Below the pieces are notes generated by a model. It did not search any database, was not told the DNA's origin, and worked only from the letters and a program-made list of their open reading frames with translations. A stretch of DNA of 44,742 nt from Thermoanaerobaculia bacterium. GTDB lineage: Bacteria > Acidobacteriota > Thermoanaerobaculia > Gp7-AA8. A program made the position numbers and the translations under genes. Location of the stretch: the NCBI GenBank assembly GCA_017883235.1, contig JADGNY010000048.1, positions 1-44,742 of the forward strand. The letters run 5' to 3'. Below are positions 5,385 to 23,233 of this stretch, piece after piece (the first letter of the stretch is position 1; each line of letters starts with the position of its first letter).

Positions 5385-8300
5385 TCAGAACGCGTACCCC
5401 AACGTAATGAAGTACGCGAACGGCCGCTCGAAGACCGGTTTTCCGGTGTCGTCGTAGCGCAGGATCTGGCGCTTGAGCTTGTAGCCGAAGTCGAAGCGCA
5501 CCGGACCGACGGGTGAGAGGTAGCGCAGACCGGTGCCGACGCCGTATTTCAGATCGCCGAAGCGGATGTTCGTCTCCGCGTAGGTGTTTCCCGCATCGAC
5601 GAAGAGCTGGGCACCGATCGGACCGGCGATCGGGAATCGGTACTCGGCGTTGAAGATGAAGAGCGAACGTCCGCCGAGCGGCGCCGTCGTGTGGCGGCCA
5701 TTCGAATCGACGATATCGATGAGTGTTGGACGGCAGCCCTCATCGATCGACGCCTTCGTCGGGCAGGCCGTGCCGAGGAGATCGAGCGCGTAGGCGCGGT
5801 TCGACGTGTCGCCGCCGGAGGTGAAGCGCTCGGACAGCGGCACGCCGCTCGTCGGAATCAGAGCGCCGGTTGCCGGATCGATGGTGGTTCCGGCGCCGAG
5901 GTCCTGGATCAGGCCGACGCGGCCCGACATCGCGAACGTGCTGTTGTCAGTGACCGGCAGGTACCACGACGTCTGCGTGAACTCTTTGAGAAAGCGTGCG
6001 TCGGCGGCGAGGAAACGGAACGCGTACTCCACCGAGGCCGTGGTGAAGAAGCCGCGGTGCGGGTTGAGCGAGTCGTCGCGCTTGTCCCAGAAGAATGTCG
6101 GGGTGAGACTGGAGATGGAGACGTTCGTGGCGTTGCGGTCAAGGCCGGGCAGGATGACGCTTTGCGCCAGCGCGCAGAGATCGCCGCTCTTGTGCTGGAT
6201 GATGCATTCAGCGATGCGGTATTCGTAGCGCAGCGACCAGCGCGTCTGGAAGCGGGCAATGCGCGAGGCCTCGATGAATCCGCCGCGCTGACGGATGTGC
6301 GTGGTAGGACGGAAGTCGTCATTCTGGAACGCCGTGACTTCCACGGGAAGGTCCCACCTGCCGATGAAGGGCTCGCGGTAGGTGAGGAAGACATCCTGCC
6401 GGTTCGGCCGGGCGTAGATCAGCTCCAGGCCGAGGTAACGGCCGGTGCCGAAGAGATTGCGCTGAGCGATCGACGCAGACGCCAGGGGTGCGACGCGGCT
6501 CGCACCGGTGTCGGGGATGAACGGCGCGGTGGCACCGAGGGCGCCCGCGAGGGTGAGGTCCTTCCCCTCGGCGACAGAGATCGTGACATTGCGCTCGGCG
6601 ACGTCGGTGGATGCCTGGGCCGGTTGAATGTCGACGCGCTGGAAGATGCCGAGGCGGTAGAGCCGCTGCTGCGCTTCGAGGATCGAGGTGTAGCTGAAGG
6701 GCTGCCCTTTCTCCAGCTCCGCCGTGTGGAGAACGACGTTGCTGTTCGTGTAGGTGTTGCCGCGCACGACGACGTTGCCCAACACGATCTTCGGTCCTTC
6801 AGCGATTGTGTAGACCACGCGCGCCGAGACTTTGTCCGCGCTCACTTCTTCACGCACATGAACCTGCACCTCGGCGTTGCCACGGTCGGAGTAGAACGTT
6901 TGCAGCGCGATGACGTCGTTGCGCTCGAGCGTCGGGTTCAATGCATCGCCGGTTCTCAGCGTGGGTGCCGGCAGGTCTTTCGTCGCTACCTGCTCGTTTC
7001 CTTCGATAGCGACCGATGCCACCATCGTCTGCGGTCCCTCGGTGACCGGGAAGTCGATCGTCATCGCATCCGTGGCGACGTTCGTGTTGACCACCGGCGT
7101 GCCGGCGGTAGCGGCGAGGAAGCCATGAAGCCGGTAGTACGACTCGAGCGTGGCCCGGTCGGCGGCGATCTGCTCGCGTGTGACGCCCTGCGGACGACGA
7201 AACAGCGAGGCAAAGATTCCCTTGATGCCTCCGCTCGGAGACGTGGCGACGACACCCTGCAGTGTCTTGGCGCTCAGTTTGTCACTGCCGGTAAACGTGA
7301 CCGCGGTCAAGTGGAACTGCTGCCCGGGATTGACGTGGAACGTCGATGTCCAGACGTTGCCGGTCAACGACTCCTCGGTATCGACGGCGGCGTTGTAGAA
7401 GCCACGCTGCTGCAACGCGGTGATGATATCCGCCGCCGCGCGGTCGACGACGTCTTCGCTGTACGGCTGGTTGCGACGGTATGGCAGAAGTCCGCGCAGG
7501 GATCCGCGGGAGATGCCGGTGACTTCGACCTTTACGAGCGGGCCTGTCGTCGCCGTGTATCGCAGGGCCACTTTGTGCGTAGCCTTGTCGTAGGTGTTGC
7601 TTTCGTAGCGGACGCTCGCCTTCCGATACTCCTGACGCAGGAGCCACTGGCGCATCCGGTCGGCGTCGAGGCGTGCCTCGTCGAGATCGAATGACTTGCC
7701 CGGGCCGTGCTTCATCCGGTCGATGAGCTGCTGCGCGTTGAACGGCGCGGTCTCGCCATTGATGGCGACCGTGCCGACAGTTGCGTGGAGACCTCGGGTG
7801 ACGTGAAAGATGACGGCGGCGCGGCTCTGCTGCCGCAGGAACGACGTCTCGGGATCGACGGTGGCGTCGAGATAGCCGGATCGCTTGAGCAGATCCTGAA
7901 CAGCGTCTGCGCCATGGTCGACGGCGTTCAGCGAAAGGATGTCGCCGAGGTGGAAGGCCAGGATGCGGAGTGCTCGGTCGCGGTCGGCGCCGTTCAGTCC
8001 ATCGAAGTCGATCGAGGCGATGCGGAAGTTCGTGTAGAGTGCGAAGACGACGGCCACGCCGTTTCCTGACGGCGCGGAGTCGACCCGGATGTCGCGGAAG
8101 TTGCCGGTGGCGAAGAGGCTCTTGACCGATGACTGCACGTTGCGAATCGACAGCGGCTGGCCGACTTTGACGGTGACGTAATGGTTGAACGTGGAGGTAT
8201 CGACGCCGGAGTCGGCGTGGAAGCCGACGCTCTTCACGATCGCGCCTGTCGGTGTGGCAACGGTAGTCGTGGGGATCGTGATCGGCGGCGCCGCCGGAAC

Positions 8301-11300
8301 GCCGGCCGTCGACGCACTGGCCGACGTGTTGAACGACGTCAGCATCGCCAGCGGGTTGTGGCCGTTCATCCCCCAGTTCCAGTGGCCTTCGTAGCGCCGC
8401 CGGAAACGCGCCTCGATGTCGTATTCGTTGGAGAGCGCATCGCGCGTGAATTGCAGCACCCAGTCAGGGGTGACCTGCCACTCCAGCGAAACGCGGTTCC
8501 TCGAGTCGCGCGTGTTGTAGAGGACCAGGATGCGGACGTCGTTCGAGATCCGTTTCTCGAACGACACTTTGGTCCCCGGATCGCCGGTCTTGTCGAGGTC
8601 AGCGGCGTCGGAGGAGATGGCGAAGGAGTCGATGAACGAGAGCGCGCTGGAGTTCAGCAGGCGGCTCAATGACTGGAAGAGAAGAGTGCGGCCGGTGTTG
8701 GCGGCCGTGGGTGACGCGTTCGGGTTGGTGTTGCGCGTCAGCGCGCCGAAGCCGAGAAGCGAGAAGAGGGTGATGTCGCTGGCCGGGGGATCGCTGGTGA
8801 TCGACGGAGTCAACCGGTCGAGCGTTCCGGTGAGCGTCACCGTGACGTCGAGAGGTCCCGACTCCACCTCGGAGATGCCGCCGCTCACGCGCGCCTCGAG
8901 GGCGACGTCGAAGTAGGGATCGATGCGGAACGGATTCTGGAAATTGATCGAGCCGCGCACAACCCGATAGTCGATGTCCTGAAAGCGGATCTTGCCGCCC
9001 TCGTTGAGCGTGACCAAGCCGAGGATCACCGGATTGCCGAGCGTGCCGGTGACTTCGATGTCGGCGCTGCCGGCGAAGTCGGCGATGTTGTTGCGCACGG
9101 CCAGCGTGTTGTCGCTCGTCAGGTGCAAACGCAGCCCGATACGGTCCTGCCACGACGCGCTGATGATGGGCGTGACACCACGGCGGGCAAGAACCGCGTT
9201 GAGCAGCGCGGTGCCGATGTCGATGTCGCGGAAGTAGAGCGCGCGGTTGACGGTAACGTCACCGGTGAGGACGGCCCGATCGAGATCGCCGCTGAGGAGC
9301 AGCGAGAAGTTGCCTTCGACCGTGAGCCCTTCGTAGTAGCGAATGGCGACCTCGGTGCCCTGCAGCGTGACACGAACGCTCTTTGGCGTCGTGCCGTCGA
9401 GCACGACCGAGCCGCCGAGAACGATCTGGCCGCCGCCGAGATGGGCGCGAATAGAATCGATGTCGATCCGGTCCTCGCGGAAGACGAGCGTGCCGGTGAT
9501 GGCGTCGATCACCTGCGGGAATCCGGGGATGCGCACCGAGGCGCCCTGGAACTCGGCGGTGCCGTTGAAACGCGGCTCGGTCAGAGTGCCGGTGAGCGCG
9601 CCGGCGACGGCGATGTGGCCGTCGGCACGCAGGTCAGGGACGAAAAGCTGCAGCAGCGCCGCTTCGAGCGCGCCGTGCAGATCGACGTTGAGCCGCTTCG
9701 CGCCGGTCAGCTCCGCGAAGCCGCCGACGGTGAAGGCCGTGGAGCCGGTCTGGCTGAGCGACAACTGGAAATCATCGAAAACGATGCGGCCGTCGTGCAG
9801 GCTGAGGCGCATCGGCCGCGCGGGAACGAAGGCGTGCTCGGACACGCGGACGTTGAATTCGGGGAAGGTGGCATCGATGCGCAGCGCCTCGATCGAAGTG
9901 AGCTTGCCGCCGAGCTGCAGGTTCGCGGTCAGGTTGCCTGCGGCTGGAAGTGACGCGGTCTTCGGCGACAGCGCCAGCGCTTTGGCAATGTCGGTCACCT
10001 TCACCTGCACGAGGCCGGAAAGCGTGCCGTCTTCGGCAACGCTGCCGTTGCCGTCGATGGTCAGCACTCCCGCGGCCGAGCCGTGCACGATGAGCTGACC
10101 GTTGCGGGTGGTGATGGAGAGCGTCGGCGGCGGTGCGTCCGGCGGCAGGTTGAGACCGCGCAGCGAGGCTTGATTGAGCGTCGCTTCCAGCACGAGCTCG
10201 GGTTGCGTCAACGTTCCCGCGCCGGTGGAGCTGAGCGTGATGTTGCCGCCGAGGATGCCCGCCAGCGACGAGAGCAGTTTGACTTTCGACAGATCGATCG
10301 ACGACGACTTGATCGAGTACGAGAACTGGTTGGTGCCGAAATCGATCTGCGCTTCGCCGGTGATCGTACCGGCGGGTGCCACGACCGTGACGTTCGTCGC
10401 CTTCAACGCCCCTTGCGTGAATTTGATGTCGGCCTTCGCGCTCGTCATCGGCTCGCCGTAGATCGAGCCGTTGGAGATGGTGACCAGACCCGATCCTTCC
10501 AGCTTCGCTTTCGGACCGCTGAGGTGCAGCCGGCCGCTGATGTCGCCGGTGACCGGCTGCTTGCCGAGATCGAGGAAGGTGATGATCTCGGCGACCGGGA
10601 ACGAGGTGGTGTTGATGTCGAGGTCGAACGATGTGTTTCCCTTGCCCGGCAGCCAGGCCACGGTGCCGTTGAGCCGCAGGTCGCCCCTGTTCAGACTAAC
10701 GCCCAGACTAACGCCCAGACTAACGCCCTGATGAACCTGGAAGTTGGCGAAGGTGACTTTGCCTTCGTCAGGCGTGCCGGTGACGACGAGCTTGCCGGTA
10801 CCGGTGCCTTTGATGGCCAGCTTGAGATCGACGGCCTTAATGGCCCGGTCGACGTTGTAGTTCACGGCATCGAGTGCGAGATCGAATTGCGGCGAGGGTC
10901 CTTTGTCGGGGAAGGTCAGCGTGCCGGTCATCGACAACCGCGCGGCACCGTCGCGGAAGGTGGCGCGCTCGAAGGTCATCACGCTCTTCGCGCCGTCGTA
11001 GCGAAGGTCGATCTCGGAGTCGCCGAGGAGGATGTTGTTGTACTTCGTTCCACTGCCGGCGATCCGCGCCACGACCTCGGGTGATTTGATCTTGCCGCGT
11101 ACGTTGCCGGTGACGTCGCCGCTCCCGCCGAGGCCGAGCAGCGTGTAGCTCTTCTTTCCGGCCGAGTGCGCGAAGTTGTAGCCGATGCGATCGAGCTCGC
11201 CGAAATCGCCGCTGTGAATTTTCATCAGCAGGTCGGTCCAGGCGTCTTCGATGCGGAACTTGCCGGTGAAGTCGATCGTCGATGCTTCCGTGGTGAGCTG

Positions 11301-12698
11301 CGCGCGCCGGAAGGTGACCACGCCGTTGTCGAGCGCGAAGTCGGTCGAGCCGCCGAGGGGGATCGGGTACGCGGCGTCCGAGAATGCCTGCGCATGCCTG
11401 GCCAGCGTGGCGTTTCCCTCGCCGGCGCCGGCCAGTATCCGATCCTTGTTCCAGTGATAAACGAGATGCCCGGTAGCGCCGCCGCGCAGACCGTTGTCTT
11501 TGATGCCCCAGTCGCTGAACAATTTTTCGAGCGAGACCCCGCTGTAGCGAAGGTCGGCCTTCATCGGGTACGGCTCGACGTACCGCGGCAGGTCGTAGTG
11601 CCCGGCAATCGTGCCGCCGCCGTACGATGCGCGCTGGATGTCGACGATGGTACGGTCGCCGGTGATGTTCATCGTGCCTCGGACGTTGGCCAGGTCGTAA
11701 ACGTCGGCGCTGATTTTCGGCGCCAGCCAGCCGCCTGTGATCGAGACCGCGCCCCCTTTGCCGCGCAGCACGCCATCGACATCGACCAGACCGTCGAGCA
11801 CGTTGTTGACTTTGAAGGTGTCGCGGACGCGATTGAGCCCGACCTGCGCTGTGAGATGAAGGTTGTAGACGGCGTCGCTGAGCGGCGCGGCCTTCCCGTT
11901 CAGGAAGATGCGCAGATCCGGCCCGCCCTCGAGCGCGACAGACTGGATGTCGAGATTGTCGGGCGTGAATCGGAACTGGCCGCGCAGCGCTGTTCGGATC
12001 GGCAAGGCATCCGGAAGATTGACCGCGAATTGAGGGCTGGTGATCACACCGGCGTAGAGGTCTTCCTTCGGCGTGACGTTGATGGTTGAAGTGATGTCGC
12101 CGGCGGTCGCAGTGATCGAGTGGCGGCGGTCGAGAAACTCGAAGGCGCCGCGCGTGACGTACAGGTTGCCGAGGTCCAGGTGATAGATCTCGTAACGCGA
12201 CGGCGGTCCGCTATTCCAATGCGGGAAGTTGTGCGCGAGCTTGGAGCCGGCCGGGTAGATCTCGAAGTTGAGATGCGGCTCGACGATGTCGATGCGTCCG
12301 ACGCGAATCTTGCGTCCCCAGAACGAGTCGATCCCGCCGGTGAGGATGAGTTGTCTGACGGTAGCGAAGTAGGGGTGGAGCGCGCCCGGCGCGTTGGCGA
12401 TGCGCAGGTCATTGATGATGATGCGGCTCTGCCGTCCGCCCTCGATCTGCACCGATCCGACGTCGACGTTGCGGCCGAGTCGCGCTTCGAGCGTCTTTTC
12501 GATGCGCAGCCGCACCAGCCCGGCGAAGCTCGACGACCCGAGGTACCACCAGCCGCCGCCGATGACCAGCGCAAGGAGCACGAAGAGGCCGATGGTGGAA
12601 CACCCCACCCACTTGAGGCAGCCCCACATGGGGCCTCTCCTCTGCCTCTCTCGCGCGGAGCGGTGATGGTGCTCCTCGGCTACTGGTTCGATCGTCAT
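5385..12698 (-). CDS. TamB-Omp85 (TamA/BamA-like) fusion protein, 2437 aa
   Basis: One uninterrupted reading frame. Residues 1-30 are basic and cytoplasmic, and 31-53 are a single TM anchor. About 60-1445 is an AsmA/TamB-like beta-rich module, ending in the DUF490-type region (GKIRFQDIDYRVVRGSINFQ, then VSFEKRISNDVRILVLYNTR and DWVLQFTRD). A Ser/Thr/Pro/Ala linker (about 1448-1482) follows. Residues 1483-2042 read as seven POTRA-like repeats of about 80 residues, each with an [ILV]xxGN-type start and a YxxxGF-type helix. Residues 2043-2437 are an Omp85 barrel ending in YFITLGYAF with the C-terminal Phe recognised by BAM. The barrel half has no signal peptide of its own, so export depends on the TamB anchor. 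In other bacteria TamB and TamA are separate partners that link the inner and outer membranes. The conserved (V/I)RG(F/Y) motif of Omp85 barrels is here NRAY (Asn2300-Tyr2303). The gene lies 23 nt behind the glycerate kinase gene. Confidence 0.9.
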   Translation of the reverse strand: MTIEPVAEEHHHRSARERQRRGPMWGCLKWVGCSTIGLFVLLALVIGGGWWYLGSSSFAGLVRLRIEKTLEARLGRNVDVGSVQIEGGRQSRIIINDLRIANAPGALHPYFATVRQLILTGGIDSFWGRKIRVGRIDIVEPHLNFEIYPAGSKLAHNFPHWNSGPPSRYEIYHLDLGNLYVTRGAFEFLDRRHSITATAGDITSTINVTPKEDLYAGVITSPQFAVNLPDALPIRTALRGQFRFTPDNLDIQSVALEGGPDLRIFLNGKAAPLSDAVYNLHLTAQVGLNRVRDTFKVNNVLDGLVDVDGVLRGKGGAVSITGGWLAPKISADVYDLANVRGTMNITGDRTIVDIQRASYGGGTIAGHYDLPRYVEPYPMKADLRYSGVSLEKLFSDWGIKDNGLRGGATGHLVYHWNKDRILAGAGEGNATLARHAQAFSDAAYPIPLGGSTDFALDNGVVTFRRAQLTTEASTIDFTGKFRIEDAWTDLLMKIHSGDFGELDRIGYNFAHSAGKKSYTLLGLGGSGDVTGNVRGKIKSPEVVARIAGSGTKYNNILLGDSEIDLRYDGAKSVMTFERATFRDGAARLSMTGTLTFPDKGPSPQFDLALDAVNYNVDRAIKAVDLKLAIKGTGTGKLVVTGTPDEGKVTFANFQVHQGVSLGVSLGVSLNRGDLRLNGTVAWLPGKGNTSFDLDINTTSFPVAEIITFLDLGKQPVTGDISGRLHLSGPKAKLEGSGLVTISNGSIYGEPMTSAKADIKFTQGALKATNVTVVAPAGTITGEAQIDFGTNQFSYSIKSSSIDLSKVKLLSSLAGILGGNITLSSTGAGTLTQPELVLEATLNQASLRGLNLPPDAPPPTLSITTRNGQLIVHGSAAGVLTIDGNGSVAEDGTLSGLVQVKVTDIAKALALSPKTASLPAAGNLTANLQLGGKLTSIEALRIDATFPEFNVRVSEHAFVPARPMRLSLHDGRIVFDDFQLSLSQTGSTAFTVGGFAELTGAKRLNVDLHGALEAALLQLFVPDLRADGHIAVAGALTGTLTEPRFNGTAEFQGASVRIPGFPQVIDAITGTLVFREDRIDIDSIRAHLGGGQIVLGGSVVLDGTTPKSVRVTLQGTEVAIRYYEGLTVEGNFSLLLSGDLDRAVLTGDVTVNRALYFRDIDIGTALLNAVLARRGVTPIISASWQDRIGLRLHLTSDNTLAVRNNIADFAGSADIEVTGTLGNPVILGLVTLNEGGKIRFQDIDYRVVRGSINFQNPFRIDPYFDVALEARVSGGISEVESGPLDVTVTLTGTLDRLTPSITSDPPASDITLFSLLGFGALTRNTNPNASPTAANTGRTLLFQSLSRLLNSSALSFIDSFAISSDAADLDKTGDPGTKVSFEKRISNDVRILVLYNTRDSRNRVSLEWQVTPDWVLQFTRDALSNEYDIEARFRRRYEGHWNWGMNGHNPLAMLTSFNTSASASTAGVPAAPPITIPTTTVATPTGAIVKSVGFHADSGVDTSTFNHYVTVKVGQPLSIRNVQSSVKSLFATGNFRDIRVDSAPSGNGVAVVFALYTNFRIASIDFDGLNGADRDRALRILAFHLGDILSLNAVDHGADAVQDLLKRSGYLDATVDPETSFLRQQSRAAVIFHVTRGLHATVGTVAINGETAPFNAQQLIDRMKHGPGKSFDLDEARLDADRMRQWLLRQEYRKASVRYESNTYDKATHKVALRYTATTGPLVKVEVTGISRGSLRGLLPYRRNQPYSEDVVDRAAADIITALQQRGFYNAAVDTEESLTGNVWTSTFHVNPGQQFHLTAVTFTGSDKLSAKTLQGVVATSPSGGIKGIFASLFRRPQGVTREQIAADRATLESYYRLHGFLAATAGTPVVNTNVATDAMTIDFPVTEGPQTMVASVAIEGNEQVATKDLPAPTLRTGDALNPTLERNDVIALQTFYSDRGNAEVQVHVREEVSADKVSARVVYTIAEGPKIVLGNVVVRGNTYTNSNVVLHTAELEKGQPFSYTSILEAQQRLYRLGIFQRVDIQPAQASTDVAERNVTISVAEGKDLTLAGALGATAPFIPDTGASRVAPLASASIAQRNLFGTGRYLGLELIYARPNRQDVFLTYREPFIGRWDLPVEVTAFQNDDFRPTTHIRQRGGFIEASRIARFQTRWSLRYEYRIAECIIQHKSGDLCALAQSVILPGLDRNATNVSISSLTPTFFWDKRDDSLNPHRGFFTTASVEYAFRFLAADARFLKEFTQTSWYLPVTDNSTFAMSGRVGLIQDLGAGTTIDPATGALIPTSGVPLSERFTSGGDTSNRAYALDLLGTACPTKASIDEGCRPTLIDIVDSNGRHTTAPLGGRSLFIFNAEYRFPIAGPIGAQLFVDAGNTYAETNIRFGDLKYGVGTGLRYLSPVGPVRFDFGYKLKRQILRYDDTGKPVFERPFAYFITLGYAF
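10692..10727 (-). repeat. In-frame 12-bp triplication inside the TamB module
   Basis: Three exact copies of CAGACTAACGCC (plus strand) encode GVSL three times in a row. The insertion preserves frame and lies in the repetitive beta region, consistent with recent slippage. Confidence 0.85.
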
Positions 12699-12721: not shown

Positions 12722-13885
12722 CTAACTGCGAGCCAAAAGATAGAGATCACGGAGGTTATTGCCGGCGGGGGGAATCATAATCGTCTCCCCGATCACTTCG
12801 GCGACGGCGAGGCTGTTGGAGCGGGCCAGCTCCCGCTTCGCGAATGCACGATCGATCTTCGCGGGAAGGGAGATGGCGACGGCGGCGACTCCGCTATTCC
12901 CGTCGATGCCATCGGAGGTGCCGAGAAGGGCGTCGATATTCATATTCTCCCGCGCCAGCGCCATCCGTACCGCGAGCTCGACGCATCGTCCTCCCTTCCC
13001 GTTTCCTTGCCTCACCACCGTCGGTTCTCCTCCCGCGATCAGCACTTCGCCGCTCCGCAACAATTCGGCCATCTCCAGTAACTCGTGCGCGGCGTCGCTG
13101 ACGTCCGATTCGATCTGCTGTTCGACCACGACCGGTGAAAGGCCGAGTGATGTCGCGATCTCCGCCGCCGCGGCGACGAGCGTGGAGTTGTCGGCGATGA
13201 GTGACACGCGGGAGTCATCGATCTCTTTGACGGTGTCGGGGCAGCCGTCGTCGCGAAGTCGGGCAACGATTCGGTCACATCCGCCGAGCTTTTGCAGAAT
13301 CGCGATGGCGTCGTTCTTTGTCGTCTTGTCCGGAAGCGTCGGTCCGGACGCGACATCGGCCAGCGCACCGGTGGAGACATCGGAGTAGACCAGCGTGACA
13401 CTGCGCTTCACCCGCGCCGCCAGCCGCCCCCCCTTGATCGCCGAGAGATGTTTGCGGACGCAGTTGATCTCGGCGATCTTCAACCCAGATGCCACGAGCT
13501 TCTCGTTGACCTCGATGAGATCGCGATCGCTGAACCAAGGAGCAAGCGGCTGCTCGATGCATGCGGATCCGCCGCCGGAGATGAGGAAGAGGATCTCGTC
13601 GTGTGCTGCAACGAAGTCGAGCAGTTGTCTGCCGGCTGCGAAGCTGGCCGCGGTGATGTTTGGATGGCCACCTTCGACGACATGCGCGCGTTTTGCCGGC
13701 CTTCGATAGCCGGCCGGGATTGCAACGAAGGCATCGACATCGTCGTCAAGCCCGTCGCGCAACGCTCCCGCGCACTTGCCGATGGCGACGACGTTGCGCG
13801 GCATGTCGGGCGTCGTACGAATGAGACGCTCAGGCGCGCAGGCGTCGAGAGCACGGAGATAGATGGATCTGAGTTGGTCGCGCAA
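12722..13885 (-). CDS. D-glycerate 2-kinase (MOFRL family)
   Basis: 387 residues from a TTG at 13885, chosen because a TAAGAT box lies 9 nt upstream as at many other starts here. The sequence follows the MOFRL-type glycerate kinase throughout: VVAIGKCAGAL near residue 31, LISGGGSACIEQPL (nucleotide-binding loop), CVRKHLSAIKGGRLA, YSDVSTGALADVASGPTLPD, and the C-terminal MOFRL domain with IAGGEPTVVRQGNGKGGRCVELA and LGTSDGIDGN. The enzyme phosphorylates D-glycerate to 2-phosphoglycerate in the cytosol. It precedes the TamB-Omp85 gene by 23 nt on the same strand, so the two are probably co-transcribed without an obvious functional link. Confidence 0.88.
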   Translation of the reverse strand: MRDQLRSIYLRALDACAPERLIRTTPDMPRNVVAIGKCAGALRDGLDDDVDAFVAIPAGYRRPAKRAHVVEGGHPNITAASFAAGRQLLDFVAAHDEILFLISGGGSACIEQPLAPWFSDRDLIEVNEKLVASGLKIAEINCVRKHLSAIKGGRLAARVKRSVTLVYSDVSTGALADVASGPTLPDKTTKNDAIAILQKLGGCDRIVARLRDDGCPDTVKEIDDSRVSLIADNSTLVAAAAEIATSLGLSPVVVEQQIESDVSDAAHELLEMAELLRSGEVLIAGGEPTVVRQGNGKGGRCVELAVRMALARENMNIDALLGTSDGIDGNSGVAAVAISLPAKIDRAFAKRELARSNSLAVAEVIGETIMIPPAGNNLRDLYLLARS

Positions 13886-18114: not shown

Positions 18115-19011
18115 GTGTTCCGCCGCCTCTTCCTCATCGTAGTCATCGCCATCGTGCTGGCCATCGTGCTGTTAATCGGGTACGAGTGGATCACTTTCCC
18201 CGACGTATCCGCGCTGGCGGCGAATCCGCCTGCGACGACGGCGTTCATGGAACAGCGCAAAGCCGAGCTGCGCGCCGCCGGAAAGAGCGACGCCATCGAC
18301 TATCGCTGGGTGCCGTACGCGCGCATCTCGCCCTACCTGCGGCGCGCGGTGCTCGTGGCCGAGGACGATGCGTTTTACGAGCACGGCGGGGTCGATGTCG
18401 ATGCGCTCCAGGAAGCGATCCGCAAAGACTGGGCGCACAAGAAGATGACCCACGGCGGCTCGACGATCACACAGCAACTGGCCAAGAACCTCTACCTCTC
18501 GCCGTCGCGAAACCCGTTGCGGAAAGTGAAGGAGTACTTCATCGCCCGTTCGCTGGAGAGCCACCTGTCGAAGAAGCGGATCCTCGAGCTCTACCTCAAC
18601 GTCGTCGAGATGGGGGAGCGGGTGTATGGCGCCGAGGCGGCCTCGCAGGCGTATTTTCATTCGTCCGCGTCGGCGCTTTCACCATCGCAGGCGGCGCTGC
18701 TCGCGGGCTGTCTGCCGAACCCGCGTGTCATGAACCCTGCCGCGCCGAACAAACGCCTGCGCTTTCGCCAGCGCATGGTCCTCTCGCGCATGAAACGCTG
18801 GGGCTACCTCTTCGAGAAGGAAGTGCTGACGGAGAAGAAGCCGGAGCCCGCCGCTCCGGCGACGGAGACGACAGCCACCATCGACACGGCGTTGCAACAG
18901 ACACCGCCGACGGACACCGCGACGCCGGAGCCGGCGCCGGAACCAACATCGACGGATACAGCGCCACCGGCAACGGAGACTGTGCCGCCACCGGAGACGA
19001 CAACTACGTAG
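18115..19011 (+). CDS. mtgA: Monofunctional peptidoglycan glycosyltransferase (GT51)
   Basis: 298 residues from a GTG; N-terminal TM anchor at 5-24. The GT51 motifs are in order: VLVAEDDAFYEHGGVD with catalytic Glu at 83, GGSTITQQLAKNLYLS, RKVKEYFIARSLE, and KKRILELYLNVVEMGERVYGAE (about 156-177). The enzyme polymerises lipid II glycan strands at the outer face of the inner membrane. There is no transpeptidase domain. Residues about 243-298 are an unusual Pro/Thr/Glu/Ala-rich tail absent from standard MtgA, probably extended in the periplasm. The TAG stop is followed after 4 nt by a palindromic repeat. Confidence 0.92.
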   Translation: MFRRLFLIVVIAIVLAIVLLIGYEWITFPDVSALAANPPATTAFMEQRKAELRAAGKSDAIDYRWVPYARISPYLRRAVLVAEDDAFYEHGGVDVDALQEAIRKDWAHKKMTHGGSTITQQLAKNLYLSPSRNPLRKVKEYFIARSLESHLSKKRILELYLNVVEMGERVYGAEAASQAYFHSSASALSPSQAALLAGCLPNPRVMNPAAPNKRLRFRQRMVLSRMKRWGYLFEKEVLTEKKPEPAAPATETTATIDTALQQTPPTDTATPEPAPEPTSTDTAPPATETVPPPETTTT

Positions 19012-19015
19012 CCCG

Positions 19016-19103
19016 CCTGGGACCGCGCGCGTCTCGCGCGCGTTTGATGCTCGGCAGCCTGCCGCTCGCTTGTAAGCGCGGGCGAGACGCCCGCGGTCCC
19101 AGG
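19016..19103. repeat. Palindromic element with nested hairpins
   Basis: Ends CCTGGGACCG (19016-19025) and CGGTCCCAGG (19094-19103) are perfectly complementary. Within each arm there is a further hairpin: GCGCGC around GTCTC on the left and GCGGGC around GAGAC on the right. The stem sequences differ but both pair, i.e. compensatory change. It starts 4 nt after the mtgA stop. Confidence 0.75.
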
Positions 19104-19165
19104 GCTGCGCCACATCCAAACGTTGAGGTACGGCGAGACGCGAGCGCTCCGACGCAGCTCCCCGC

Positions 19166-19171
19166 TATGAT
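19166..19171 (+). promoter_or_regulatory. -10 element (TATGAT) of the LPS operon, leaderless
   Basis: TATGAT ends 7 nt before the ATG at 19179. It overlaps the alternative upstream ATGs at 19167 and 19170, which argues for 19179 as the true start. Confidence 0.5.
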
Positions 19172-19178
19172 GCCGGCC

Positions 19179-20426
19179 ATGTTCGTCCTCTACGAGGTGC
19201 TGCTTTACCTCGTGCTGATTCTGGCGCTGCCGTACTTTCTCTTCGCGGGTGTGCTGCGCGGAAAGTACCTCGCCAATTTTTCGGAGCGGATGGGCTTTTA
19301 TCGGACGCCGGCGGCGGCGCACGACCTCTGGATTCACGCGGTTTCGGTCGGGGAAACGCTGGCCGCGCGGCCCGTGGTCGACGAGATCCTGCGGCAGCGT
19401 CCGTCGACCACGATCGTTTTCACCACCACGACCATCACCGGCCAGGCGCAGGCGCGGCGGCTGTTTCCCGAGGCAACCGTGACCTATTTCCCGTTCGATT
19501 TCGCCGCGAGCGTGAAGCGCTTTCTGGAGCATCATCATCCGCGCGTATTCGCCACGATGGAGACCGAGATCTGGCCGAACGCCACCCGGCTCTCCCGCGC
19601 GCGAGGCCTTCGCCTGCTGCTGGCAAACGGGCGGATCTCCGACCGCTCGTTTCCACGCTATCGATTGCTGCGGCCATTCGTCGCGCCGGTGCTCCGGCAA
19701 TACGACCGCATCCTGGCGCGGGAGGAGACCGACCGCGAGCGCTTCATCGCCATCGGCGCGCCGCCGGCGATCGTCGAGACGAGCGGCAACGTGAAGTTCG
19801 ATTACCTGCCCGATGACCGGCCGCTGGAGATCGCCCCACGGTTGGAAACGCTCATCGCCGGCCGCAAGGTCCTCGTCCTCGGCTCGACGATGGAGGGGGA
19901 GGATGAGCCGCTGATTGCGGAGTTGGGAGGCTTCATCGCTTCCCACAATGCGTTCGTCATCATCGCGCCGCGCAAGCCCGAGCGCTTCGAGATCGTCGCG
20001 GGGCTGCTGGCAGCGGCGAAGATCCGTTACGCACGCCGCACCGATTGGAGCGACGGGCCGGCCAATGTGCTGCTACTCGATACCTTCGGCGAGCTTGCCA
20101 AGATCTATCACTTCGCCACCGCGGCGTTCATCGGCGGCAGTCTGGTGCGGACCGGCGGCCACAATCCGATCGAGCCGGCGGCGGCCGGGGTGCCGGTCTG
20201 CTTCGGCCCGCACATGTCCAACTTCCGCGAGATCGCCAGGGTCTTCCTACGCGACGGCGGCGCGGTCGAGGCACGCGATGCCGCCGCCGTCTTTATCTTC
20301 GCCGAACGGATGCTCGACGACGAAGCGGCCCAACGTGCCATGAGCGATCGCGCTCGGAGGACGGTCGAACAAAACCGCGGGGCGGCGGCGCGCACCGGCT
20401 CGCGCATCGTCGAGTTGCTGGCGTGA
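19179..20426 (+). CDS. waaA: 3-deoxy-D-manno-octulosonic acid (Kdo) transferase
   Basis: 415 residues from the ATG at 19179 (up to four codons longer if 19167 is used). An N-terminal membrane anchor (FVLYEVLLYLVLILALPYFL) leads into GKYLANFSERMGFY; the Glu in ERMGFY is in the position of the catalytic base of WaaA. Then come WIHAVSVGETLAARP, FTTTTITGQAQAR, PFDF, METEIWPN, LLLANGRISDRSF, SGNVKFD, LGSTMEGEDE and the C-terminal donor site GGSLVRTGGHNPIEPAAAGVP at about 318. It adds Kdo from CMP-Kdo to the lipid A precursor at the inner membrane. Its stop overlaps the GTG of lpxK (GTGA), the first of three tight couplings in the operon. Confidence 0.95.
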   Translation: MFVLYEVLLYLVLILALPYFLFAGVLRGKYLANFSERMGFYRTPAAAHDLWIHAVSVGETLAARPVVDEILRQRPSTTIVFTTTTITGQAQARRLFPEATVTYFPFDFAASVKRFLEHHHPRVFATMETEIWPNATRLSRARGLRLLLANGRISDRSFPRYRLLRPFVAPVLRQYDRILAREETDRERFIAIGAPPAIVETSGNVKFDYLPDDRPLEIAPRLETLIAGRKVLVLGSTMEGEDEPLIAELGGFIASHNAFVIIAPRKPERFEIVAGLLAAAKIRYARRTDWSDGPANVLLLDTFGELAKIYHFATAAFIGGSLVRTGGHNPIEPAAAGVPVCFGPHMSNFREIARVFLRDGGAVEARDAAAVFIFAERMLDDEAAQRAMSDRARRTVEQNRGAAARTGSRIVELLA

Positions 20427-21268
20427 CCACCCTCCTCAAACCGTTCGAGCTTCTCTGGCGCGGCGTGAACCGGCTGCGCCGCGTGCTCTACCGCCGCGGC
20501 CTCTTCAAGAGCAAGCGCCTTCCGCGTCCGGTGGTCTCGGTCGGCAACCTCGCCGCCGGCGGCGCCGGGAAGACGCCGGCCGTCATCACCATCGCCCGCT
20601 ATCTGGCAAAGCGCGGCTTCCGCGTGGCCGTGCTCACGCGGGGCTATGGCCGTAACGACAAGGCCTCCGGCATCGTCACATCACTGGACGCCGCCCGCTT
20701 CGGCGATGAGCCGGTGCTGATGAAAAGCAAGCTGAAAAATGTTGATGTAATCGTCGGATCAAATCGATACAACAATGCGCTACAGTTTCTCAATCAGAAC
20801 GATTGCGACTTATTCGTGCTAGACGACGGCTTCCAGCACCTGCAGCTCGCACGCGACGTCGACGTCGTCATCGACACCGCGGGCGGCGTGATGCGTGAAG
20901 GGCGCTCGGCTCTGGCGGATGCGGACTTCGTCATTCGACGCAACCTCCGTATCGCCCTACCGGAGGGATTGACCTCGAAGCGCCTCTTTGCCTTCGCCGG
21001 ACTTGCCAATAACGATCAGTTCTTCGAGTCGCTGCGCGGTCTGGGACTGAACGTCATCGCCACGAAGAGCTTCCGCGACCACTATCGCTACACGCCGGCG
21101 GACGTCGCCGCGTTGAAGGACGCCGCCCGGGATGCTGGTGCCGAGGCCGTCGTCACGACGGAAAAAGACGCGGTCAAGATCGACGACCGTGACATCATCC
21201 CCATCGCCGCGGAGATGATCGTCGAGACCGAAGTACTCGAGGCGATCGCCGCCCGCATTTCCCGATGA
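20423..21268 (+). CDS. lpxK: Tetraacyldisaccharide 4'-kinase
   Basis: 281 residues from a GTG that overlaps the waaA stop by 4 nt. The Walker A loop is GNLAAGGAGKT at 41-51, followed by VLTRGYGR, GDEPVLM, DLFVLDDGFQHLQLARDVDVV and the C-terminal VVTTEKDAVKI. The enzyme phosphorylates the 4'-position of the lipid A disaccharide at the cytoplasmic membrane face. At 281 residues it is shorter than the usual 320-350, mainly in the linker between the two domains, but all motifs are present. It is coupled by an ATGA overlap to the following acyltransferase. Confidence 0.95.
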   Translation: MTTLLKPFELLWRGVNRLRRVLYRRGLFKSKRLPRPVVSVGNLAAGGAGKTPAVITIARYLAKRGFRVAVLTRGYGRNDKASGIVTSLDAARFGDEPVLMKSKLKNVDVIVGSNRYNNALQFLNQNDCDLFVLDDGFQHLQLARDVDVVIDTAGGVMREGRSALADADFVIRRNLRIALPEGLTSKRLFAFAGLANNDQFFESLRGLGLNVIATKSFRDHYRYTPADVAALKDAARDAGAEAVVTTEKDAVKIDDRDIIPIAAEMIVETEVLEAIAARISR

Positions 21269-22197
21269 GCCGCCGCCGCAAGAACGCGCTCCTGCAGCGT
21301 GTCGAATACGTTTTGTATCGCGCCGTTGTCCGCGCCGTCCGCTCGCGGTCCGACGAATCACTGCGTCGATGGGGAACACGTCTCGGCAGCTTGGGGCGCC
21401 GCGTCCTGCGCGGGCGCGACCGTCTGGCCATGCGCAACCTCGCCGCGGCGTTCCCCGGGAAGAGCGAGCCCGAGCGCCGCCGGATCGCCGACGAATGCTG
21501 GCGCCACTTCGGCCGGGAGGCGCTGGCCACCATCCGTATGCAGCACGTGCCAATCGAGGAGGTCCCGTCGCATTGCCGCTTTGTCAACGCACGGATCTTC
21601 GAAGAGGCCCAGGCCCGAGGCCGCGGCGTCGTTCTCCTCAGCGCGCATTACGGCGCGTGGGAGATTGCCGGGCTGGCCATCATGGCGCTGGTGAGGAACG
21701 TCAGCACCGTGGCCCGGCCGCTCGATAACGAGCTTTTGGAGGGCGACCTCGCTCGTTTGCGTGCCCGTACGGGCGCGGAAGTGGTCGACCGCAAGCGTGC
21801 AGCGCGCGTGTTGCTCAAGACACTCTCGCAGAATGGCGTCATCATCCTGCTTCCTGACCAGGCCGTGCAGCCGCGCGAAGGGGTTCTCGTCCCCTTCCTC
21901 GGGCGTCCGGCGTGGACGACGGACGCACCCGCAAAAATGGCTTTGCGTCAGGAGTCGGAGATTGTGTTCGCTTTTTGCATTCCGGACGCAACCGGGCACC
22001 ACCTCGAATTTGAGGAACCGATCACGATCGATCAGTTGGGCGAGGACGAAAAGAACGCCGAAGCGCTGACCATGCGCATCAATGACGTTATTTCCCGACG
22101 CATCGCGGAGCGTCCGGAGTTATGGTTGTGGATGCACGACCGCTGGAAGGGGAACGCGTCGGGTGAGATCGAAGACGAAACAACAGATGCCCTGTGA
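21265..22197 (+). CDS. lpxL: Lipid A acyltransferase (LpxL/HtrB family)
   Basis: 310 residues; the ATG overlaps the lpxK stop (ATGA). The catalytic HX4E motif is His128-Glu133 in LLSAHYGAWE. The family blocks RLRARTGAEVVDRKRAA, ILLPDQAVQPREGVLVPFLGRPAWT and the C-terminal PELWLWMHDRWKG are also present. Members transfer a secondary acyl chain to Kdo-lipid A, and the position between lpxK and waaF supports this role. An N-terminal hydrophobic anchor is weak or missing, unlike E. coli LpxL. The name is used by family and context; LpxM-type specificity cannot be excluded. Confidence 0.88.
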   Translation: MSRRRKNALLQRVEYVLYRAVVRAVRSRSDESLRRWGTRLGSLGRRVLRGRDRLAMRNLAAAFPGKSEPERRRIADECWRHFGREALATIRMQHVPIEEVPSHCRFVNARIFEEAQARGRGVVLLSAHYGAWEIAGLAIMALVRNVSTVARPLDNELLEGDLARLRARTGAEVVDRKRAARVLLKTLSQNGVIILLPDQAVQPREGVLVPFLGRPAWTTDAPAKMALRQESEIVFAFCIPDATGHHLEFEEPITIDQLGEDEKNAEALTMRINDVISRRIAERPELWLWMHDRWKGNASGEIEDETTDAL

Positions 22198-23233
22198 AAC
22201 AGTCGTAGTCGGCCTCAATTGGGTCGGGGACAACGTCCTCGCCCTGCCCACCTACCGGGCGCTCTATCACCGCTTCCGGAGCGAAGGGGGGATCACCGTG
22301 GCCGCTCCCCGTCACATCGCGTCGCTGCTCGCCTCGGCCGGCATCTTTCGCAATGTCATCTCCTGGAACGGCGATACGCGCGAGCGCATCCGCCTGCTGA
22401 AGGCCGGCCGTTTCCGCCGCGCGGTGATCCTCCCCAATTCGTTCCGCGCAGCCATGGTCGCCTTCGCGGCCGGCATCGGCGAGCGCTGGGGGTATGCGAC
22501 CGACGCGCGCGGCATGTTGCTGACGCACGGCGTGCGCCGCGATCCGTCACGGGGCCACCAGCTCGACGACTACACGACGCTGCTCGCGGCGATGAATGCC
22601 CCGCGCGTCGTCGACGAGATCCCGACCATGACCATTCCGCCGCATGTGCGGGAGCGGGCGGGGCGCCTCCTTCGCGATGCCGGAGTCCGGCTCGACGAGC
22701 CGCTGTTCGGCCTGCACGCCGGCGGCCTTTACGGGCGCGCCAAGCATTGGGGCGACGACCGCTACGGCGAGCTGGCTGAGCGGCTGCGCGGTGCCGGCTT
22801 CCCGGTCGTGTTGCTGACCAGTCCCGGAGAGAGACATCAGGCCGACACCATCTCCGCGGCGATCGGCGGGATACCGATCATCGGCGACGACGGCGACGTG
22901 CTGCATCTTGCCGCCGCGATCTCGCACTGCTCGGTGGTGGTCACGAACGACAGCGGACCGCTGCATCTGGCCACGGCGCTGGCCGTCCCGTCCGTCTCGA
23001 TCTTCGGTCCGACCGATCCCGACCGCACGGTGATTCCCGGCGCATCGCGCGTCGTCCGCAAACCGTTCGCCTGCCAGCCTTGCTACAAACGCGAGTGTCC
23101 GCTGATGCACCACGGCTGCATGAACGAGATCACCGTCGACGATGTCTTCGCCGCCGCGGTGGGACTGTTCAACGAGATCGACGGGAAAATCGAGACCGAC
23201 GGTGCGGGGGCTGTGGCGTTCGGTAGTGAATAG
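22187..23233 (+). CDS. waaF: ADP-heptose:LPS heptosyltransferase
   Basis: 348 residues from the ATG at 22187, overlapping the acyltransferase gene by 11 nt. GT9 motifs are VVVGLNWVGDNVLALPTYRAL at the N-terminus, GLHAGGLYGRAKHWGDDRYGELA for the start of the C-domain, and VVTNDSGPLHLATALAVPSVSIFGPTDPDRT for the ADP-heptose site. Then come CQPCYKRECPLMHHGCMNEI, a Cys-rich segment typical of WaaF. It adds L-glycero-D-manno-heptose to the inner core. The WVGD motif and Cys-rich loop favour heptosyltransferase II, although it is the only one in the operon. Immediately after its TAG stop a hairpin repeat begins. Confidence 0.92.
   Translation: MPCETVVVGLNWVGDNVLALPTYRALYHRFRSEGGITVAAPRHIASLLASAGIFRNVISWNGDTRERIRLLKAGRFRRAVILPNSFRAAMVAFAAGIGERWGYATDARGMLLTHGVRRDPSRGHQLDDYTTLLAAMNAPRVVDEIPTMTIPPHVRERAGRLLRDAGVRLDEPLFGLHAGGLYGRAKHWGDDRYGELAERLRGAGFPVVLLTSPGERHQADTISAAIGGIPIIGDDGDVLHLAAAISHCSVVVTNDSGPLHLATALAVPSVSIFGPTDPDRTVIPGASRVVRKPFACQPCYKRECPLMHHGCMNEITVDDVFAAAVGLFNEIDGKIETDGAGAVAFGSE

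Follow-up and report, generated by a model that had tools for sequence, protein, structure and literature searches.

Described pairs of TamB and Omp85 proteins

In chloroplasts, the two envelope membranes are bridged by TIC236 and TOC75, a TamB-like and an Omp85 protein that are encoded by separate genes. In TamAB from E. coli (9xdc/9xdd), a TamB groove with an N-terminal anchor and a C-terminal domain is associated with an Omp85 partner bearing POTRA domains, a layout also seen in the protein described here, where the anchor is a predicted one. However, TamAB consists of two chains, TamA has three POTRAs and the TamB end is free, its last strand pairing with strand 1 of the TamA barrel (PMC12800296), whereas the present protein is one chain with seven POTRAs and an internal TamB end. 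Another pair of an Omp85 protein with TamB, TamL-TamB, is found in Bacteroidota, where TamL is a lipoprotein (PMC12045153). In the BAM-TAM of Borrelia burgdorferi, TamB works with a BamA-type protein, whose barrel it has been modelled as completing; unlike the fusion, the two are encoded by separate genes and the BamA-type protein has five POTRAs (PMC13382580). Regarding Omp85 proteins joined to an assembly partner, the Omp85 WD40-like proteins have been described as reminiscent of a BamA-BamB fusion, but their partner is BamB-like and not an inner-membrane-anchored TamB (PMC4104836).

The nearest precedent is provided by the duplicated BamAs of Acidobacteria and Aquificae, some of which have seven POTRAs and which were proposed as the origin of TamA (Heinz et al., 2015; PMC4494059). 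As in the present case, a second, TamB-linked BamA with seven POTRAs occurs besides a canonical BamA. The gene order reported for Acidobacteria is BamA-TamB and a few very long TamBs are noted, but the genes are separate and the words fused and fusion are absent from that text (Heinz et al., 2015). Those words are likewise absent from four TAM papers (PMC12800296, PMC12045153, PMC11014939, PMC13382580), and no description of a TamB-Omp85 fusion was found in the literature searched, which included few subscription papers and preprints.

A single frame for TamB and a BamA-type Omp85

The window, i.e., the whole stretch of 44,742 nucleotides that was analysed, comes from a soil-type acidobacterium in which two parts of an envelope machine, separate elsewhere, are encoded as one very long protein. 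The features of the locus are as follows.

5385..12698, minus strand: fused tamB-omp85 gene of 2437 codons and a stop codon, starting with ATG; a single frame is found in 14 of the 18 genomes of the family
12540..12608, minus strand: predicted inner-membrane signal anchor, residues 31-53 (from sequence), preceded by a basic N-terminal tail
8379..12539, minus strand: AsmA/TamB-type beta groove, residues 54-1440 (Pfam, structure model, Foldseek)
8433..9452, minus strand: TamB (DUF490) Pfam domain, residues 1083-1422 (PF04357, profile 3-368 of 381)
8379..8408, minus strand: last TamB strand, residues 1431-1440, the counterpart of the C-terminus of separate TamB in the three nearest split relatives
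8241..8378, minus strand: hypervariable linker, residues 1441-1486, of low identity and without a signal-peptide-like segment
6564..8240, minus strand: seven POTRA domains, residues 1487-2045 (six Pfam stretches; seven units in the model)
5388..6557, minus strand: Omp85 beta barrel, residues 2048-2437, with terminal Phe (PF01103; BamA/TamA matches by sequence and fold)
12725..13885, minus strand: glycerate 2-kinase-like (DUF4147/MOFRL) gene, directly upstream on the same strand, used as a locus marker

The 2437-codon frame of the original prediction is real, has no internal stop and runs from 12698 to 5385 on the minus strand, which had not been stated; by Pfam it contains both TamB and Omp85, and 14 of the 18 family genomes have them in one frame. 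PF04357 matches with 140.3 bits (cut-off 22.4; whole-protein E 1.3e-40), and as this match extends over profile positions 3-368 of 381, the TamB part reaches almost to its C-terminal DUF490 end, as had been proposed. It is followed by six Pfam stretches of POTRA (E 6.4e-48) and by Omp85 (PF01103, residues 2081-2411, E 1.3e-45), the frame ending in ...GYAF, consistent with the barrel and terminal Phe claimed earlier. The anchor predicted at residues 31-53 coincides with a hydrophobic segment, whose top 19-residue window reaches a GRAVY of 2.14 in a hydrophobicity scan. Just before this anchor, residues 19-28 (12615-12644, minus strand), with an invariant Cys, show an identity of 0.909 and are among the most conserved ten-residue windows of the fusion; a Cys is seen by eye near the same place in the three nearest split relatives.

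Two AlphaFold2 models, both of poor overall quality, were generated from alignments of 13 and 12 sequences. Model 1 (residues 1255-2437, mean pLDDT 62.1) displays six clear beta-alpha-alpha-beta-beta units of the POTRA type, a seventh unit of low confidence located at Pfam's best POTRA stretch (1973-2045), and a barrel of about 16 strands by our own count; the seven POTRAs announced from the sequence are thereby recovered as six Pfam stretches and as six clear units plus a less certain one. In Foldseek, this model matches BamA (4k3b, E 1.7e-38) and TamA (8us2, E 9.8e-28). Model 2 (residues 620-1640, mean pLDDT 65.5) is nearly continuous antiparallel beta over residues 620-1155, where most residues have a pLDDT of 70-90; its Foldseek hits include TamB in the TamAB structures 9xdd and 9xdc (E 2.6e-5). 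Since pLDDT lies below 50 in both models over nearly all of residues 1238-1484, i.e., the TamB end and the linker, the docking of the TamB end is not predicted by them.

As to the kind of Omp85 protein, the C-terminal half scores 335.1 bits on the NCBIfam BamA profile TIGR03303, above the cut-off of 297. On the profile of TamA (NF047950) the fused protein scores 72.8 bits, below the cut-off of 625, and it has seven POTRAs where TamA has three. On that of TamL (NF052279), a lipoprotein, it scores 85.2 bits, below the cut-off of 400, and none of the 14 fusions has a Cys in the linker. The score on the TamB equivalog ATportTamB (NF047952), 23.4 bits, is also below its cut-off (825). The fused protein departs from the canonical form of BamA, which has five POTRAs and its own signal peptide; with seven POTRAs, a link to tamB and a canonical BamA elsewhere in the genome, it corresponds to the acidobacterial second BamA.

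The TamB end strand and the linker

A mark of TamB is an aromatic-ended beta strand at the very C-terminus, and 51 of 68 separate TamB frames end in F, Y or W; in the fusion this strand is kept but internal. In the three nearest split relatives (L042, L051, L054), the separate TamB ends in ...FRRR(F/Y)xGxW, and the fusions continue from the same place. The corresponding residues 1431-1440 show 82% mean pairwise identity over 13 fused rows and rank 64th of 2428 ten-residue windows, the 97.3rd percentile, over the ten complete fusions. Conservation of the strand after fusion suggests that it may still dock, whether in cis or in trans. Across 10 rows, the groove retains a mean pairwise identity of 56-66% and is almost free of gaps.

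The linker, rich in Pro, Thr and Ala, shows only 20% mean pairwise identity over residues 1441-1489, and its five 10-residue windows range from 0.11 to 0.31. It had been given as 35 residues long; with the boundaries set here, counting from the final strand of TamB to the first of the POTRAs, it comes to about 46. A working signal peptide still lying inside the linker was considered and ruled out, as the maximal 12-residue GRAVY in the linkers of the 14 fusions is 0.35-1.60, compared with 2.51-3.18 in the signal peptides of the three split Omp85s (L042, L051, L054). The earlier reading that the barrel half lacks a signal peptide of its own agrees with this. GC at third positions is 0.89 in the linker and 0.87 and 0.84 in its flanks, a weak comparison over 45-49 codons of a gappy stretch.

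Fused and split forms in the family of the window

In the genome of the window, an assembly of 246 contigs, PF04357 is found only in the fused frame (two stretches), while PF01103 is found at four places besides it, among them a separate canonical BamA (L003) that scores 469 bits on TIGR03303 over the 831 aa seen. The window also holds, at 18186-23230 on the plus strand, a run of LPS genes encoding a Kdo transferase, LpxK, a lipid A acyltransferase and a glycosyltransferase of family 9, from which an outer membrane with LPS is expected.

Of the 18 family genomes covered, 14, including that of the window, read through the junction in a single frame; in four of them the frame is truncated by a contig end, yet the junction lies within it. 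Fourteen related named loci were found, all from MAGs of several isolate series, assigned to Thermoanaerobaculia, Acidobacteria (some gp7) or Acidobacteriota, and the nearest relatives of the fused protein are L039 (78% identity over the whole protein) and L037 (85% over 630 columns of the Omp85 half). Two genomes, both of genus g4, are split; in G017 a contig end falls within TamB, and G015 gave no match. A sister-family genome (G018) is also split. In L042, L051 and L054, the three nearest split relatives, there is an overlap between the tamB stop and the start of omp85, which is TTG in L054 and ATG in the other two, and the second gene of the two split family genomes and of the sister-family genome encodes a signal peptide. 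The survey that the original prediction called for thus shows both forms. It had named as a refuting case closely related genomes in which the genes are separate and the second one encodes a signal peptide. Such genomes do exist, but the split arrangement is read as the ancestral state, on the grounds that the fusion is found in 14 of the 18 family genomes and that its clade lies inside split rows in the trees.

The glycerate kinase gene is directly upstream in 9 of the 13 fused loci besides the window, the other 4 being cut at the 5' end, and it has the same position at L053, a cut locus, and in each of the three nearest split relatives. It was found in none of 22 other class loci, L064 being cut there so that it cannot be judged. 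This common neighbour indicates that the fused and the nearest split forms represent the same locus. Of the class genomes with matches outside the family, a subset was covered; in its 22 loci L054-L075, tamB is followed by omp85 on one strand, overlapping or close, with the exceptions of L072 (a gap of 1241 bases) and L061 (cut). A fusion of another kind is found at L076, likewise in the class but outside the family. In family f7, ten genomes of genus g19 (G025, G028, G031, G034, G037, G043, G046, G049, G052 and G055) gave no PF04357 match at E 0.001, unlike most of the class.

Fusions across Acidobacteriota

The phylum survey covered 149 genomes of Acidobacteriota, and of this phylum alone, with a completeness of at least 90%. 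At least 37 carry a fusion, namely 33 genomes with 34 loci together with G000, G010 and G012 from the window's family and G040. The 34 loci come from 35 PF04357 frames of 1835 aa or more among the matches listed, other than those already in hand: TamB and POTRAs are in one frame in all but one (L133, split), and a barrel match is found in 33 of the 34, the barrel of L111 falling in an N stretch. The 6.0 Mb genome G108 consists of a single contig, which carries the fused frame. These loci rule out that the fusion is confined to the family of the window. The original prediction held that TamB and Omp85 are normally separate genes; split forms do exist, but it had not seen that fusions are widespread in Acidobacteriota. 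At eight loci (L134, L139, L148, L153, L155, L158, L169 and L171), the best Omp85 match is upstream of tamB on the same strand, which is the BamA-TamB order of Heinz et al. (PMC4494059).

The labels F_A, F_B and F_C were coined in this analysis. F_C comprises 29 of the 34 loci, in which the POTRA match starts near the third POTRA of the window (profile positions 103-113) and an end strand resembling that of the window's lineage is recognisable by eye. Given this late start, and a spacing of only 14-52 residues between the profile matches of TamB and POTRA in the 34, most of them have about five POTRAs. F_B comprises nine class loci (L076-L084) with TamB, POTRA and barrel in one frame of 1849-2251 aa. 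Its TamB C-terminus has diverged: the Pfam match stops at 203-222 of 381 in all nine, and with our own profile the main match ends at 283-290 of 446, with weak extra matches (8-16 bits) to about 415 in four of the nine. A loss of the C-terminal docking strands in F_B was considered and withdrawn, as 126-175 residues remain before the POTRA match, compared with 170-190 in a set of twelve F_C loci, and by eye the sequence still shows a beta-like strand end; the end is therefore taken as diverged rather than lost. A second PF04357 frame, shorter than the fused one, is present in eight of the nine F_B genomes; at the three such loci examined (L058, L073, L074), it proved to be a separate tamB next to omp85. 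L101 stands apart from the remaining fusions, nested among split relatives in a genome (G068) that also has a separate tamB-omp85 pair (L157). With mechanically called starts, 6 of 52 fused frames lack a segment with a GRAVY of 1.6 or more in their first 130 residues, so an anchor is not shown for every fusion.

Number of fusion events

The Omp85 tree of 116 rows was built without the cut loci L048, L038, L053 and L061, the short L154 (a 1361-aa frame that rang as fused with our own profiles) and all loci without a match to TamB or to the barrel, such as L111; odd composition was flagged for 36 of its rows. The 13 usable fusions of the window's family form one clade (100) inside split relatives, the nine F_B loci form another (99), and L101 falls inside another split clade (99). 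Four fused/split changes are needed, the split L070 and L074 lying on long branches beside the deep fused group. In a tree of 58 rows picked by hand from the 116, with L070 and L074 not among them, three changes are needed (bootstrap range 3-3); the window's family is recovered (100/99) within a nine-row set including the three nearest split loci (100/100), and L101 groups with the split L165 and L172 (100/98).

The TamB tree (55 rows, three short F_B rows left out) likewise requires three changes, with a bootstrap range of 3-4; here too the window's family falls into a single clade (100/100), and L101 is again placed with a split row (96/93). Long branches were flagged in the trees for L072, and for L123 in the TamB tree. 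The trees of both halves require at least three fused/split changes. As the window's family and L101 are nested in split sets, they would most simply represent two separate gains. In these unrooted trees, the deep fused lineage may be either gained or ancestral.

Possible modes of action of the fused protein

The reading that we favour, and hold to be rather probable, is that the fused protein is a single-chain TAM active in phospholipid transfer and/or OMP assembly. It would derive from an operon of tamB followed by an overlapping gene for the acidobacterial second BamA, through loss of the tamB stop and of the second gene's signal peptide. The whole chain would be exported behind the TamB signal anchor and its barrel inserted by the separate BamA; by analogy with TAM, a fixed groove from the inner membrane to the barrel could then serve phospholipid transfer and/or OMP assembly. 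The contact between TamB and its partner would thus be made permanent, as originally proposed, in a covalent bridge from the inner to the outer membrane. The BamA score of 335 bits (cut-off 297), set against 73 of 625 for TamA, makes OMP assembly without lipid transport possible. More tentatively, with somewhat less than even confidence, it can be proposed that in Acidobacteriota at least two independent events, and possibly three, turned the TAM into one polypeptide, giving a covalent chain integral to both membranes, with a BAM-folded barrel, an N-terminus anchored in the inner membrane and an internal TamB strand completing the barrel in cis or in a neighbour.

Several other explanations, which overlap in part, have to be weighed against the single-chain TAM. 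The protein could be exported whole and cut in the linker by a periplasmic protease, its halves working as a two-chain TAM, in which case fusion would serve equal dosage and a shared export signal. A Pro/Thr/Ala-rich linker of about 46 residues, of 20% identity and very low model confidence, would be compatible with this, as would a last TamB strand conserved as if it were still a docking end. However, no conserved linker segment suits a specific cleavage site (windows of 0.11-0.31), and in the other large fused set the gap between TamB and POTRA is only 14-52 residues; such processing is considered unlikely. The last TamB strand could also augment the barrel of another molecule or of a separate BamA, the fusion being then a lattice or a BAM-TAM adaptor and not a self-contained bridge. 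This would be in line with the strand pairing in the solved TamAB (PMC12800296) and with the Borrelia TamB modelled completing BamA (PMC13382580), with a strand conserved in the window's lineage and a similar end seen by eye in F_C, and with the distances involved, since several POTRAs lie between the last TamB strand and its own barrel and only 14-52 residues join TamB to the first POTRA match in F_C. POTRA chains are nevertheless able to curl so that the first POTRA nears the barrel. Such curling, with the first POTRA near the barrel, was modelled in Borrelia (PMC13382580), and docking in trans is regarded as distinctly improbable.

Slightly lower still is the probability given to a second BamA for which the TamB part would be a mere tether, positioning OMP assembly without lipid transport. 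While the Omp85 half scores above the BamA equivalog cut-off and lipid transport by TamB is attributed on the basis of its family only, a groove kept almost gapless at 56-66% identity (10 rows) argues against a simple tether. As to an assembly artefact, or a stop codon lost in one strain, which an assembly of 246 contigs might bring to mind, it was rejected and retains practically no probability: it is contradicted by the survey, with 14 of 18 family genomes fused and at least 34 fused TamB-POTRA loci in other families of the phylum, including the one on the sole contig of G108.

Implications

The short distance of only 14-52 residues between the TamB and POTRA matches in one large fused set limits the models that can be drawn for docking of the TamB end into a barrel. 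The fusion also raises a folding question, as the barrel has to be handed to BAM with the N-terminus still fixed in the inner membrane. One family has both the fused and the split form of this locus, which would allow a direct test of what the covalent link changes. Repeated fusion of TamB and Omp85 constitutes natural evidence that the pair acts one to one: similar joins appear to have arisen repeatedly among related bacteria, and this suggests that both parts operate as a fixed pair between the two membranes.
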